A stretch of 25,901 nt of DNA from Bacteroidales bacterium (GTDB lineage: Bacteria > Bacteroidota > Bacteroidia > Bacteroidales > UBA932): NCBI GenBank assembly GCA_017551215.1, contig JAFZMA010000109.1, positions 1-25,901 on the forward strand, given 5' to 3'. Under the pieces are notes generated by a model. It was not told the origin of the DNA and did not search any database. It was given only the letters and a program-made list of their open reading frames with translations. Shown here in pieces: positions 7,149 to 21,380 of the stretch. A program made the position numbers and the translations under genes. The first letter of the stretch is position 1. Each line of letters begins with the position of its first letter.

Positions 7149-8504
7149 ATGAAGAATATTTTCAGAAGTTCAGGCTTTGTGCTTATAGCTGTTTTGGCGG
7201 GTCTTTCCTTTTGCTTAAACTCCTGCTTTCTGCATGATGAGAAAAGCAGTACAAGCGGCAAGGATTCCACGGAGGTCAAAGACTATGTGGACCTTTTCAT
7301 GAAGCAGTACTACTATTGGGCAGACCAGATGCCCAACTCTACAAAGAAAGACAAGAGCGTGGCAGATTACTTTGAATCCCGTCTGGTTTCCAAAGACAGG
7401 TGGAGCTGGATGATGAACGGAGAGTCCTACATCAATATGGAAACAGGTACCTCAACCGGTTCATACGGTTTCCATTTAAGCCAGCCGATAGAATACTTCA
7501 AGGACTACGATGTTTACATCACATACGTAGACAAGAACTCTCCGCTTGCAAAAGCCGGAGTTACAAGAGGTTGGCAACTGACGGACATTGCCGGTACAGA
7601 TGTGAACACTCTTATCAAGAACGACAGGTTCTACGATGAAATAGGCAAATCTTCCAACAATTTCACGTTCAAGGATACCAAAGGCAACAGCGTTAACCTG
7701 GATCTCAAGCAGACTACTTTCCAGAGCAACTCCGTAACGTACAGCAAGATTTTCACAGCTGCGGACTACGACAAACTTTCAAAGAGCGCCAAAGTAGGAT
7801 ATATTCTCTACACAACCTTCAATTCCAACATGCAGAACGAGATAACCAGTACCCTTAACCAGATGAAGAATCAGGGGATTACAGACCTGATTCTTGACCT
7901 CAGGTACAACGGCGGTGGAGATATTGGCGTATGTACAGAAGTGGCAAGCCTCCTGGCCCCTGCCTCCGCAGACGGCAAGACATTCCTGACTCTGGCTCAC
8001 AATATTGCAAACAAGAGCGAGGACAAGACATATTCCATCAAGAGAACCAGCAACTCGCTGAATTTGGACAGGCTTTTCATCATCACTGGCAGCGGTACAG
8101 CATCGGCTTCCGAGAGCATGATCAACTGCCTGTCTCCATATATGGATGTTCAGACGGTCGGCGGCCAGACATACGGCAAGCCAAACGGAATGTATGTGTT
8201 CCTCTATCCACAGAAGGCAAAGGGAAGCAACATAAAATACGCCTTCCTGCCTATCAGCTTCTACTGCAAAAACTCTGAAGGCAAAGCAGATTACGACAAC
8301 GGCATAATTCCAAAGCAAAAGAGATATGATGACCTTTATCATGATTTCTCCGCCCAGGAAGATCTGATTGGGGCCTGCCTCACCTACATAGGCACCGGTT
8401 CCTACCCTGTATTGCCTGTGGCCCATACAACCAAGTCCACCACCACTTTCGGCAAGCAGATTTTCCTCAGCGATGGATTTAAAGGCGCTTACATAAAGAA
8501 ATAG
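7149..8504 (+). CDS. S41 family C-terminal-processing-type serine protease, lipoprotein
   Basis: A 451-residue protein from the ATG at 7149. That start gives a signal peptide and a lipobox LNSC (Cys26); an upstream start would spoil the signal. Residues about 95-165 form a PDZ-like domain (YVDKNSPLAKAGVTRGWQL). The S41 core follows: DLILDLRYNGGGD, then GSGTASASES with nucleophile Ser319, and TYGKPNG with Lys344. The Ser-Lys distance of 25 equals that of E. coli Tsp (S430/K455), which supports an active Ser/Lys dyad. It probably acts on periplasmic or outer-membrane proteins, and the substrate is unknown. It stands alone, divergent from the symporter operon. Confidence 0.92.
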   Translation: MKNIFRSSGFVLIAVLAGLSFCLNSCFLHDEKSSTSGKDSTEVKDYVDLFMKQYYYWADQMPNSTKKDKSVADYFESRLVSKDRWSWMMNGESYINMETGTSTGSYGFHLSQPIEYFKDYDVYITYVDKNSPLAKAGVTRGWQLTDIAGTDVNTLIKNDRFYDEIGKSSNNFTFKDTKGNSVNLDLKQTTFQSNSVTYSKIFTAADYDKLSKSAKVGYILYTTFNSNMQNEITSTLNQMKNQGITDLILDLRYNGGGDIGVCTEVASLLAPASADGKTFLTLAHNIANKSEDKTYSIKRTSNSLNLDRLFIITGSGTASASESMINCLSPYMDVQTVGGQTYGKPNGMYVFLYPQKAKGSNIKYAFLPISFYCKNSEGKADYDNGIIPKQKRYDDLYHDFSAQEDLIGACLTYIGTGSYPVLPVAHTTKSTTTFGKQIFLSDGFKGAYIKK

Positions 8505-14312: not shown

Positions 14313-14355
14313 AAACGAATAGTTTGAAGGGTAATAATCTTAAACGAAGAGTTTG
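14310..14355. repeat. Short direct duplication of the holA 3' end
   Basis: CTTAAACGAATAGTTTG (14310-14326) and CTTAAACGAAGAGTTTG (14339-14355) differ at one base and lie 29 nt apart. The second copy contains the holA stop and last codons, and the first is non-coding downstream sequence. Confidence 0.7.
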
Positions 14356-15380
14356 GTCAGGAGGGCGTTCAGGAGGGCTCCGTCCGTGGCATTGCCGCCA
14401 TAGTTGCTCTTTGATTTGAGATCCGTGTCCTTGATCAGGGAAATTATTCCCATGGTTTTCTTGATTGGGAAGTTTCTGGCTGCCGTCTGGTACTCCCTGA
14501 CTCTCATGGTGCCGAACACACCGGCTCTCTGGCAGGCCTGGAAGAAATCCCTCTCTCCCGCCGTAATCTCCGCCTCAACCGTAAGAAGCTGGTTAAAGTA
14601 GAAGAACATGGCGCCGAGCGTAGCCTGCACAGGGTATTTCTTTGGATTTGAAGCAAATACCTCAGCGATGGAGAATGCCCTCATTATGTTCCTTTCCCCT
14701 ATTGCCTTGCACAGCTCAAACGGATTATAGTCTCTTGAAACACCGATATTTACCTCCACATCCCTAACCTTGATTGCCGTGCCGTCCGTACCCTTCATCA
14801 GTTTGTCTATCTCCAACACTATTTTCCTCAGCGATGTCCCGGCACTCTGGGCCAGAAGTTGGGCAGCATCCTGGTCTATGGAGTAGCCCTTCTCCCGCAC
14901 GTAATCTGTAATCCACTGCGGAACTTTCCACTCGTCCAGAGGATAGGATTCCAGCACCTCCGCCTTGTCTTTCAGCTTCTTGTAGAAACCGGTACGCTTG
15001 TCCAGAGGCTTTCCGGTAAAGCTAAGCACCAGAATTGTATCCGGAGCCGGAGACGCCAGATAATACTCAAAAGGCTGAAGGCTGGAAAGTTGCTGGGCTT
15101 CCTTTACTATAATCAGCTGATAAGGACTGGCCACAGGATATCTTCTGCACAGGCAGACAATCTGCCCCGCATCGGACTCATTGCCATAGACTATGCTAAG
15201 GTTGAAGTCTTTCTGGCTCTCGTCCAGAACAGTGGAATTCAAGGCATCTATAATCACATCCGAGTAATACGGCTCCTCACCCGCCAAAACATATATACGG
15301 GAGAAATTCCGGTTGCGGATATTGTCCAGAATCTCGGAGAATTTCCTTACAGACGCTTCCTTGTCTACCTTCTGTGCCAT
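14340..15380 (-). CDS. holA: DNA polymerase III delta subunit
   Basis: A 346-residue clamp-loader subunit. The N-terminal region reads FSRIYVLAGEEPYYSDVIID, the HolA equivalent of the LxGxExYLxx motif. It is followed by the Rossmann-like region with YQLIIVKEAQQL and the middle domain (GYSIDQDAAQLLAQSAGTSLRKIVLEIDKL in shortened form), which resembles the AAA+ lid helices. HolA opens the sliding clamp together with the gamma/tau and delta' subunits in the replisome. It is divergent from the HsdR-CCA fusion gene with only 83 nt between starts. It is a single gene with a near-consensus promoter directly before the ATG. Confidence 0.92.
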   Translation of the reverse strand: MAQKVDKEASVRKFSEILDNIRNRNFSRIYVLAGEEPYYSDVIIDALNSTVLDESQKDFNLSIVYGNESDAGQIVCLCRRYPVASPYQLIIVKEAQQLSSLQPFEYYLASPAPDTILVLSFTGKPLDKRTGFYKKLKDKAEVLESYPLDEWKVPQWITDYVREKGYSIDQDAAQLLAQSAGTSLRKIVLEIDKLMKGTDGTAIKVRDVEVNIGVSRDYNPFELCKAIGERNIMRAFSIAEVFASNPKKYPVQATLGAMFFYFNQLLTVEAEITAGERDFFQACQRAGVFGTMRVREYQTAARNFPIKKTMGIISLIKDTDLKSKSNYGGNATDGALLNALLTKLFV

Positions 15381-15463: not shown

Positions 15464-17311
15464 ATGGAAGAGGTTTTTGACCCGCTGAGGAAAAAATACG
15501 TGGCCCTGACTCCGGAGGAGAATGTCCGCCAGCAGTTTATCCGCTACCTGAACGAGAAGCGGGGATGGCCACTGCACATGATGGTCAGCGAGACGGAAAT
15601 CTCCATCGGCGATGTCAAGCTGCGCTGCGATATTGTCTGCTACGGAAAAGACCTTTCTCCAAAGGTGATTGTGGAATGCAAGAGGCCTACGGTAAAAATT
15701 TCTTCCAAGACCTTTGAGCAAATCTGGAATTACGCCCTCATACTCAAGGTGGAATACATTATAGCCACAAACGGCAACCATACTTTTGCCTGCCGCTATG
15801 ATGCTGACAAAAAGCAATATGTTTTCATCAGCGATATACCATCGTACGAGAGTAACAGTAACGTCGAGGAGACTGATAAAGAAAAAGAAGACTTGAAAGA
15901 GCCCGGAAACGACATATTCCTGAAAGACAAGATATTCAAGGTGATATCAGAAACTGCCGCGGAACACGGGGTGAGAGCCTTTGTAATCGGCGGCTTTGTC
16001 CGTGACTGCTTCCTCCAGAGGCCGAGGAACGATATAGACATAGTTGTGGAAGGCAGCGGAATAGAGATAGCCCAGGCCGTGGGAGAGAAAGTCCACAGCA
16101 AGGTGAGCGTGTTCAAGAACTTCGGTACCGCAATGCTTAGGCACGGCGGAAATGAGATAGAGTTCGTGGGAGCAAGGAAGGAATCCTACAACCGCAATTC
16201 CCGCAAGCCGATTGTGGAAAACGGTACACTGGAGGATGACCAGAAGCGCAGGGACTTTACTGTCAACGCCCTTGCATTCTCCTTGCAGAAAGAGGATTAC
16301 GGCAATCTTGTAGACCCGTTCGGCGGAGTTGCGGACCTTCAGAAAGGCCTGCTTCGCACACCTCTGGATCCGGACATTACCTACTCGGACGACCCTCTGA
16401 GGATGATTCGCGCCATAAGGTTTGCCACGCAGCTGAACTTTACCATTGTGCCGGAATCTATCCAGAGCATAAAGAGAAATAAAGGAAGGCTGGAGATATT
16501 GAGCAGGGAAAGAATCGCTGAGGAAATGCACAAGATTCTTCTTGCAGACAAGCCTTCAATTGGGCTGAACCTGCTTCAGCAGACAGGCCTTCTGGAAGAG
16601 TTCCTACCTCAGTTAGCTGCCCTTCAGGGAGTTGAGACAATGGAGGGCCGGGGCCACAAGGAGAACTTTGCCCACACTCTTCAGGTTCTGGACAACGTGG
16701 CCAGCAAATCGGATAACCTTTGGCTAAGATGGGCCGCCCTCCTGCATGATATAGGCAAGCCTGCCACAAAGAAGTATGAACCGGGTACCGGATGGACTTT
16801 CCACGGACACGAATTCATTGGTTCCAAGATGGTTCCGGCCATTTTCAAGCAACTGAAGATGCCACTGAACGAGAAAATGAAATACGTGCAGAAACTTGTG
16901 GCACTACATTTGAGACCAATAGCCCTTGTGGAAGACACTGTAACGGATTCCGCCGTGAGGAGACTGCTATTTGACGCGGGAGACGACATAGACGACCTGA
17001 TGACTCTCTGCGAGGCGGACATAACCTCCAAGAACGAGTCTAAAGTCAGGCGGCTGAAATCCAACTTCCAGCTTGTAAGACAGAAACTTGTGGAGGTGGA
17101 GGCCAAAGACGCCATACGTAATTTCAAGAACCCTATTACCGGGGAACTTGTAATGGAATACTACGGCATAGAGCCATGCAACCTGATTGGCCAGATTAAG
17201 GAATACGTGAAGGAAGCCATACTGGACGGAAAGATAGAAAACAACTTTGACCAGGCCTTTGAACTGATGAAAAAGAAAGGAGAAGAACTGGGCCTTATAC
17301 ACAAGGAATAA
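15464..17311 (+). CDS. Fusion of HsdR-N-type PD-(D/E)XK nuclease domain with CCA tRNA nucleotidyltransferase
   Basis: One uninterrupted 615-residue frame holds two proteins that are normally separate. Residues about 1-128 form an HSDR_N_2-type restriction-endonuclease fold with Asp56 (LRCDIV), Glu71/Lys73 (VIVECKRP) and the QxxxY motif Gln86/Tyr90 (FEQIWNY), so the nuclease core looks intact. A charged linker (about 130-150) follows. Residues about 152-615 are a complete CCA-adding enzyme: GGFVRD at 176-181, metal-binding DID at 190-192, RRDFTVNALAF, then an HD domain with LLHDIGK (His428/Asp429). The enzyme adds or repairs the 3' CCA of tRNAs in the cytoplasm. A separate HSDR_N_2 protein next to holA is familiar in Bacteroidetes; its joining to the CCA enzyme is unusual. 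The ATG at 15464 directly follows a -7 box. Two envelope genes follow at 18-19 nt spacing. Confidence 0.9.
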   Translation: MEEVFDPLRKKYVALTPEENVRQQFIRYLNEKRGWPLHMMVSETEISIGDVKLRCDIVCYGKDLSPKVIVECKRPTVKISSKTFEQIWNYALILKVEYIIATNGNHTFACRYDADKKQYVFISDIPSYESNSNVEETDKEKEDLKEPGNDIFLKDKIFKVISETAAEHGVRAFVIGGFVRDCFLQRPRNDIDIVVEGSGIEIAQAVGEKVHSKVSVFKNFGTAMLRHGGNEIEFVGARKESYNRNSRKPIVENGTLEDDQKRRDFTVNALAFSLQKEDYGNLVDPFGGVADLQKGLLRTPLDPDITYSDDPLRMIRAIRFATQLNFTIVPESIQSIKRNKGRLEILSRERIAEEMHKILLADKPSIGLNLLQQTGLLEEFLPQLAALQGVETMEGRGHKENFAHTLQVLDNVASKSDNLWLRWAALLHDIGKPATKKYEPGTGWTFHGHEFIGSKMVPAIFKQLKMPLNEKMKYVQKLVALHLRPIALVEDTVTDSAVRRLLFDAGDDIDDLMTLCEADITSKNESKVRRLKSNFQLVRQKLVEVEAKDAIRNFKNPITGELVMEYYGIEPCNLIGQIKEYVKEAILDGKIENNFDQAFELMKKKGEELGLIHKE

Positions 17312-20412: not shown

Positions 20413-20537
20413 TGAATATTTTGTATATAGCAGAATTTTAGCTGATTGCGTTCTTTGACATATGGCAAGAAAATGTTAAAAATATTCGTTTTTTAGGATG
20501 ATTGTTCATACCTTTACTTCTGTAAAGACATGTGCGT

Positions 20538-21380
20538 ATGAGCAAGAAAGAAGCATTGCAGTTGTTCGGTGACAGAAAGATCCGCACTGCGTGGAATGAA
20601 GAAGAGGAGAGATGGTATTTCTCTGTGGTTGATGTTGTGGCTGTTCTGACAGATAGCAGTAATCCGTCGGATTATCTTAAAAAATTACGTTCCAGGGATC
20701 CCGAATTGTCAAAAGGATGGGGACAAATTGTCACCCCCCTTCCTATGAAGACTCCTGGAGGCACTCAAAATGTTAATTGCTCAGATCAAGAGGGCATTTT
20801 TAGGATTATTCAGTCTATTCCATCTCCCAAGGCGGAACCATTCAAGTTATGGATGGCCAAAGTGGCTAGCGAAAGAGTTGATGAAATCCAAGATCCTGAA
20901 CTGGCGATAGACCGAGGATATGAGTATTATCGCCGGCTGGGATATTCAGAAGCCTGGATAAATGAGAGAATGAAGGGAAAGGAGGCCAGAAAAGCCCTTA
21001 CGGATGAATGGCAAAGGACGGGAGTGTCTGGGCAGCAATATGCATCCCTGACTGATATCATAACCAAAGAATGGTCTGGGATGACAACCAAGCAGTATAA
21101 GAATTATAAGGGACTCAAGAAAGAGAATCTTAGAGACCACATGACACGAACTGAAAGTGTTTTGAATACACTTGCTGAGGTTGCTACAACAGAATTATCC
21201 CAAAAAGAAGATCCTAATGGATATAAAGAGCAGACTGTTGTCGCCAAGAAGGGAGGAAATGTCGCGGCTACAGCGCGAAAGGCACTAGAAAAGCAATTAG
21301 GAAGAAGTGTGATTACAAAGCAGAACGCAAAATCCCTAAAGAGCCGGAAAGCCCCGAAGGAGTTGGGCAATGTAAATTAA
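20538..21380 (+). CDS. Bro-N domain protein, DinD-like
   Basis: A 280-residue protein from the ATG at 20538 (MSKKEALQLF); a GTG 2 codons upstream is less likely. The Bro-N domain (about 1-105) shows RKIRTAWNEEEERWYFSVVD and the block FRIIQSIPSPKAEPFKLWMA, both typical of the chromosomal Bro-N/DinD-like family. The C-terminal half has AILTDEI-like and GMTTKQYKNYKGLKKENLRD segments. E. coli DinD is damage-inducible and antagonises RecA; transfer of that role here is uncertain. The gene and its leader are visibly AT-richer than neighbours and use more A/T-ending codons, which suggests lateral acquisition. It stands alone between two terminator/promoter boundaries. Confidence 0.85.
   Translation: MSKKEALQLFGDRKIRTAWNEEEERWYFSVVDVVAVLTDSSNPSDYLKKLRSRDPELSKGWGQIVTPLPMKTPGGTQNVNCSDQEGIFRIIQSIPSPKAEPFKLWMAKVASERVDEIQDPELAIDRGYEYYRRLGYSEAWINERMKGKEARKALTDEWQRTGVSGQQYASLTDIITKEWSGMTTKQYKNYKGLKKENLRDHMTRTESVLNTLAEVATTELSQKEDPNGYKEQTVVAKKGGNVAATARKALEKQLGRSVITKQNAKSLKSRKAPKELGNVN

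Follow-up and report, generated by a model that had tools for sequence, protein, structure and literature searches.

Why should one polypeptide carry both a nuclease fold of the restriction-endonuclease kind and the enzyme that adds CCA to transfer RNA (tRNA)? The question is raised by a gene in a 25,901-nucleotide stretch of Bacteroidales DNA (contig JAFZMA010000109.1 of assembly GCA_017551215.1; hereafter, the window), where an HSDR_N_2 domain runs into a CCA tRNA nucleotidyltransferase. Translation of positions 15464-17311 gives 615 residues, and the sole stop is the terminal one. This gene is probably an operon fusion, its nuclease half being tethered to the sole CCA enzyme found and most likely still a metal-dependent nuclease.

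Pfam searches of the protein placed HSDR_N_2 at residues 17-126 (expectation value, E, 4.4e-31; 107.6 bits vs. a cut-off of 25), PolyA_pol (PF01743) at residues 172-298 (E 3.7e-27), PolyA_pol_RNAbd at residues 325-386 (E 1.3e-17), and an HD domain at residues 402-487 (E 1.4e-11), all above their curated cut-offs; the HSDR_N and tRNA_NucTran2_2 models fell below theirs. The predicted structure consists of two folded parts joined by a disordered linker, with predicted local distance difference test (pLDDT) scores below 50 at residues 132-150. The nuclease half is predicted to adopt a restriction-endonuclease-like fold, and the Foldseek matches of the CCA half are solved CCA-adding and tRNA-processing enzymes. 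Compared with solved structures by sequence, the nuclease half gave no significant match (best E 0.099). The N-terminus MEE(V/I)FDPL is common to 14 of 14 fused loci, the window included, in agreement with a start at 15464, and the alternative longer frame that exists from a GTG at 15374 is unnecessary. A sequence-only reading of this DNA had proposed a single stop-free frame joining the nuclease domain to a complete CCA enzyme with nucleotidyltransferase and HD motifs, and a holA neighbor; each of these proposals holds.

The fusion is carried by a group of uncultured gut Bacteroidales. Among the best 120 of 8000 scored proteins (P0002-P0121), at least 30 clusters besides the window are fused (P0002-P0030 and P0035), with identities of 67 to 99%; the nearest, P0002, is 99% identical to the window protein and likewise 615 residues long, and P0030 is shorter, at 481 residues. 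When only residues 1-132 served as query, 29 proteins were retrieved, every one fused to PolyA_pol; this search missed distant cases, since P0035 was not among them. We also surveyed 39 genomes from the genus of a close relative of the window. Thirteen have the genes fused without a stop and 23 have them side by side but split; in the remaining three the genes are apart, only a cca fragment is found, or there is no match (one genome each). An assembly or sequencing error as the cause of the fusion is excluded by the other fused clusters together with the 13 genomes, and the clade with a full-length fusion by which the sequence-only reading was to be judged thus exists, with P0002 and the 13 genomes lending the open junction independent support. 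One further genome, G034, was listed with a 683-residue frame and was rejected as fused, its DNA showing three stops before the cca ATG. In the split HSDR_N_2 gene of G034 (locus L122, reverse strand), extra sequence is inserted between D56 and E71, and three near-identical 17-residue repeats form a tail ahead of the stops.

The nuclease half keeps a complete active site under purifying selection. The D...ExK...QxxxY signature accompanies the above-cut-off HSDR_N_2 match, and its residues D56, E71, K73, Q86, and Y90, located correctly from the letters alone, are invariant in 88/88 HSDR_N_2 rows, all found by similarity to the window domain, 30 of them from the phylum sample described below and one gene counted twice (L001 and L143). 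The same five are unchanged in 31/31 fused proteins (the window plus 30 among the matches listed). In the CCA half, G176, G177, R180, D181, D190, D192, R262, R263, D264, D309, D310, R313, R316, E349, and R350 do not vary among the 121 proteins compared (P0001-P0121), and the HD residues H428 and H447 are nearly invariant (120/121 and 119/121). The PolyA_pol head domain carries the motifs of a class II CCA-adding tRNA nucleotidyltransferase, which we take to be GGxxRD, DxD, and RRD. Across 14 fused loci, the median ratio of nonsynonymous to synonymous substitution rates (dN/dS, from pairs with dS between 0.2 and 2) came to 0.050 over 46 pairs in the nuclease half and to 0.052 over 51 pairs in the CCA half; that of the linker, 0.139 (39 pairs), lies above both domains. 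The expectation that both halves retain their catalytic residues is therefore borne out by conservation and by selection.

The family call for the CCA half requires a comment. All NCBIfam CCA models scored below cut-off for the window protein (best TIGR02692, an actinobacteria-named model, 358.4 vs. 438.8 bits); as passing a curated model does not define the family biologically, the assignment relies on the motifs. The protein lacks the PAP I signature that PMC8208693 gives for poly(A) polymerases. In each of the 13 fused genomes, all drafts and not including the window's own, there is a single PolyA_pol match, which speaks against membership in a CC-adding/A-adding pair. An encoded CCA is missing in 62 of 67 tRNA rows from 30 loci of four fused genomes, and the other five end in CCA or have it next; the loci overlap, and some genes are counted more than once. 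Because there is one PolyA_pol per fused genome and the tRNA genes mostly lack CCA, the fusion gene should supply CCA addition: no other CCA-adding enzyme was found in these genomes, and the CCA half should, judging from gene content, mature their tRNAs.

How the fusion arose is accounted for by a gene pair that is already tight in the wider family. Of 99 family genomes, 89 have both genes, and in 53 of these 89, three of them fused, HSDR_N_2 immediately precedes cca on the same strand. Elsewhere it is about 1.1-1.3 kb upstream (10/89), downstream (1), far or on the opposite strand (2), or on another contig (23). Pairing used the best HSDR_N_2 match per genome (two for G104) in 92 of the 94 genomes over cut-off; G062 and G073 were dropped because their best matches were weak, with E 1.1e-8 in a frame of 355 residues and E 1.1e-5 in one of 786. 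At 75 split adjacent loci, picked by similarity rather than at random and with the duplicates L100, L105, L108, L122, and L123 left out, the median gap is -1 nucleotide: 42 pairs overlap, 29 have gaps of 0-30 nucleotides, and four of 31-100. With the genes so close, fusion through stop loss would be an easy step. Around 88 nuclease-domain loci, holA was within 1.5 kb in 37, further off in 24, and not found in 27, and it stands divergent from the pair, upstream on the same strand, or downstream depending on the locus, suggesting that holA changes its position around a pair that is kept together.

The picture differs in a phylum sample of 109 genomes, paired by best HSDR_N_2 match per genome, with 21 same-contig pairs re-checked by script. 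One PolyA_pol protein was found in 108/109 and an HSDR_N_2 match over cut-off in 70/109, and 35/109 gave no HSDR_N_2 match at E 0.001. Both genes are adjacent only in the fused genome G001, the next nearest pair being 2.6 kb apart, start to start. The sequence-only view that the two genes are separate in Bacteroidetes stands for the phylum sample; it missed the tight pairing in the family. A number of Bacteroidota in this sample show another arrangement, namely frames of about 300-340 residues that contain the HSDR_N_2 domain.

On a tree of 74 CCA rows, the fused label has to change three times (3-4 in the bootstrap), and 0/500 shuffles gave as few; the starred branches force two changes. Three fused groups can be distinguished: the main clade, to which the window belongs, a second group made up of L090-L093 and P0029, and P0035. 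The proteins P0031-P0034 and P0036-P0045 were labeled split by protein length, and upstream DNA was seen for the same-lineage loci L094, L096, and L097. The fusion arose in at least one lineage, probably in two or three.

We propose that the small PD-(D/E)XK nuclease gene, which in the family often immediately precedes cca, with an overlap or a gap of a few bases, lost the stop between the two, so that a single polypeptide would be made. Its nuclease half, predicted to fold independently, would most likely act, like the free protein, as a metal-dependent nuclease, and the flexible tether would keep the two halves at a fixed 1:1 amount. Both halves would be active, as their motifs suggest, CCA addition by the fusion protein would be essential, and the main gain would be co-production or co-localization rather than new chemistry.

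Several observations weigh against this account. Adjacency could be inheritance within one family, in which the genes are on different contigs in 23/89 genomes, and across the phylum sample G001 stands alone. Support is low on the branches that would separate the fused groups (92/40; 63/55), and an approximately unbiased test does not reject a single origin for the main clade and the second group (p 0.076). The fused genomes are draft assemblies of unstated completeness, so that a single PolyA_pol match is no proof of "only one". Finally, a methionine stands exactly at the ancestral cca start in 28 of the 31 fused proteins, which makes a separate CCA product possible in most relatives.

This last point leads to an alternative that we consider fairly doubtful, namely that an internal start yields most of the CCA enzyme as a separate protein, with the fused form as a minor product. 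The methionine persists despite a variable preceding linker. Bacteroidota lack Shine-Dalgarno sequences and an A at -3 favors initiation, according to one study (PMC6847099); at -3, 7/9 fused loci with the ancestral ATG have A, and the other two have G and C. However, the ancestral methionine is lost within a longer linker in the window protein and P0002, and the window junction contains no ATG, a codon scan leaving only TTG 15893, GTG 15941, and GTG 15971. It is also gone from P0029 and the rest of the second fused group, where in-frame ATG, GTG, and TTG are absent from the end of the nuclease domain to the GG motif in 4/4 loci; in the stretch scanned, the nearest start-type codon is one GTG inside the nuclease domain (3/4 loci). 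A separate CCA enzyme could start there only at a rarer codon. The same losses, which make separation harder, bear on the possible but somewhat doubtful explanation that one stop codon was lost harmlessly from an overlapping pair, in a near-neutral join whose gain is limited to co-translation. In keeping with this, 12 of the 75 split pairs already share one reading frame, the linker varies in length and sequence, and presence in the genus is patchy (13/39); yet the fused state spans 67 to 99% identity, both halves have dN/dS of about 0.05 in the tested loci, and the internal methionine went in two lineages. A PD-(D/E)XK domain may evolve into a binding module, and a catalytically dead nuclease half acting as a nucleic-acid-binding module would fit that background; we regard it as very improbable in view of the five invariant residues in all 88 rows and 31 fused proteins. 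As for the two-part condition that the sequence-only reading named as refuting, a separate internal start is possible in most relatives, and a nuclease inactive in all of them looks unlikely because the active site is invariant.

The functional roles put forward by the sequence-only reading, namely tRNA-end removal with CCA repair, nucleic acid binding, and cleavage of foreign nucleic acid linked to tRNA state, are conjectural. It is distinctly unlikely that the fusion is a coupled tRNA 3′-end enzyme whose nuclease cleaves 3′ trailers, or 3′ ends that are aberrant, over-extended, or damaged, before the CCA half rebuilds the same tRNA, and a bifunctional quality control in which wrong, damaged, or foreign 3′ ends are removed and rebuilt on the same tRNA appears quite improbable. 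These explanations overlap with one another and with those above, and their odds do not sum to one. Replacement of RNase Z by the fusion was rejected, an RNase_Z match being present in 13/13 fused genomes; all are below the curated cut-off, with a 90-residue fragment only in G042 and two pieces in G023, G025, and G028. Over the genus, the match is full length in 31/39 genomes, in two pieces in five (G023, G025, and G028 with the fused gene; G038 and G043 with the split pair), in two pieces with extra sequence in two (G009, G019), and a fragment in G042. Because RNase Z has lost a middle segment in G023, G025, and G028, the fused lineage that has no internal start codon, the fusion might take a share in 3′-end maturation there. 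However, that segment is also missing from the split-pair genomes G038 and G043 and is retained in the main fused clade, so that a link between segment loss and fusion is inconsistent and was set aside. Compared with L199-L201, L195-L198 (G025, G028, G038, G043) are missing about 35-45 residues between ETYGY(L/I)F and PRxFAYC.DT, presumably the place of the tRNA-binding arm (exosite).

Known systems resemble the window protein only in part. In the CCA-adding enzyme of Thermotoga maritima, Nrn (a DHH phosphoesterase) and CBS domains lie N-terminal. That bacterial CCA enzyme likewise carries accessory domains on its own polypeptide, native and not required for CCA addition according to PMC8208693, whereas the accessory domain here is an HSDR_N_2 PD-(D/E)XK nuclease fold. 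Stand-alone HSDR_N_2 proteins of Bacteroidota belong to the same family, share the invariant residues, and often lie beside holA, as in the window with its divergent holA, but they are free (frames of about 140-210 residues for strong matches) and neither joined nor adjacent to cca. Stand-alone class II CCA enzymes of Bacteroidota have the same domain order and motifs; the 90 relatives without the nuclease domain among the best 120 of 8000 are 75-89% identical and 461-512 residues long (median 466), and the fusion adds to these an N-terminal domain and linker of about 150 residues. A further comparison is with the N-terminal nuclease domain of type I HsdR and of BsaXI and BpuSI; here, the 615 residues contain no helicase or translocase, methyltransferase, or specificity part by Pfam, and no HsdM/HsdS partner or other restriction-system domain was found in the 23 window proteins scanned with Pfam, a set short of some small frames. 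A defence system was rejected, as PADLOC gave only partial matches, with type I models over their N-terminal stretch and with Cas models over their HD parts. Nucleases of contact-dependent inhibition that cleave tRNA at the acceptor end were rejected as a PD-(D/E)XK precedent, since PMC9071432 assigns them the BECR fold. Among open-licence papers, the matches listed contained no description of a nuclease-CCA fusion, and a search by name found no described role for the HSDR_N_2 protein of Bacteroidota.

The fusion offers a way to approach a small nuclease-fold protein that many Bacteroidota conserve next to holA: one lineage has joined it to an enzyme of known job. It also carries a warning for annotation, as the fused CCA enzyme is named "type I restriction enzyme HsdR N-terminal domain-containing protein" in P0004, P0011, and P0012. 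Coordinates are collected in Table 1.

Table 1. Positions in the window of the fusion gene, its parts, and the neighboring holA
Feature	Position	Strand	Details
HSDR_N_2::CCA tRNA nucleotidyltransferase fusion gene	15464..17311	+	615 residues, P0001; single open frame, Pfam, fused homologues
HsdR-N-like PD-(D/E)XK nuclease-fold domain, residues 1-126	15464..15841	+	
Catalytic signature	15629..15682	+	codons D56 15629-15631, E71 15674-15676, K73 15680-15682
QxxxY signature, Q86 to Y90	15719..15733	+	
Linker, residues 127-151	15842..15916	+	disordered core 132-150; no ATG; possible TTG start 15893
Class II CCA-adding enzyme with HD domain, residues 152-615	15917..17308	+	PF01743, PF12627, PF01966, motifs
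holA (DNA polymerase III delta subunit)	14340..15380	-	PF06144, E 1.1e-13; divergent, 83 base pairs from the fusion start codon

Other arrangements were seen where HSDR_N_2 and cca are not directly joined. A lipoprotein-like frame of 332-349 codons, which we assume to be GldB-like, lies tightly between the two in seven of the ten family genomes with a 1.1-1.3 kb gap (L185, L186, L189, L190, L192, L193, and L194). At L188 the intervening frame is holA-like by look and on the opposite strand, and at L048 (4918-5829) it has 303 residues and is presumably, by look, a PD-(D/E)XK transposase-like (Rpn) protein. The order is reversed at L022, where the HSDR_N_2 frame (7332-7757) immediately follows that of cca, with an overlap between the two. 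In the window itself, about 3 kb downstream of the fusion, positions 20532-21380 encode a BRO family N-terminal domain protein (PF02498, E 1.1e-10), a domain usual in phages and mobile elements.
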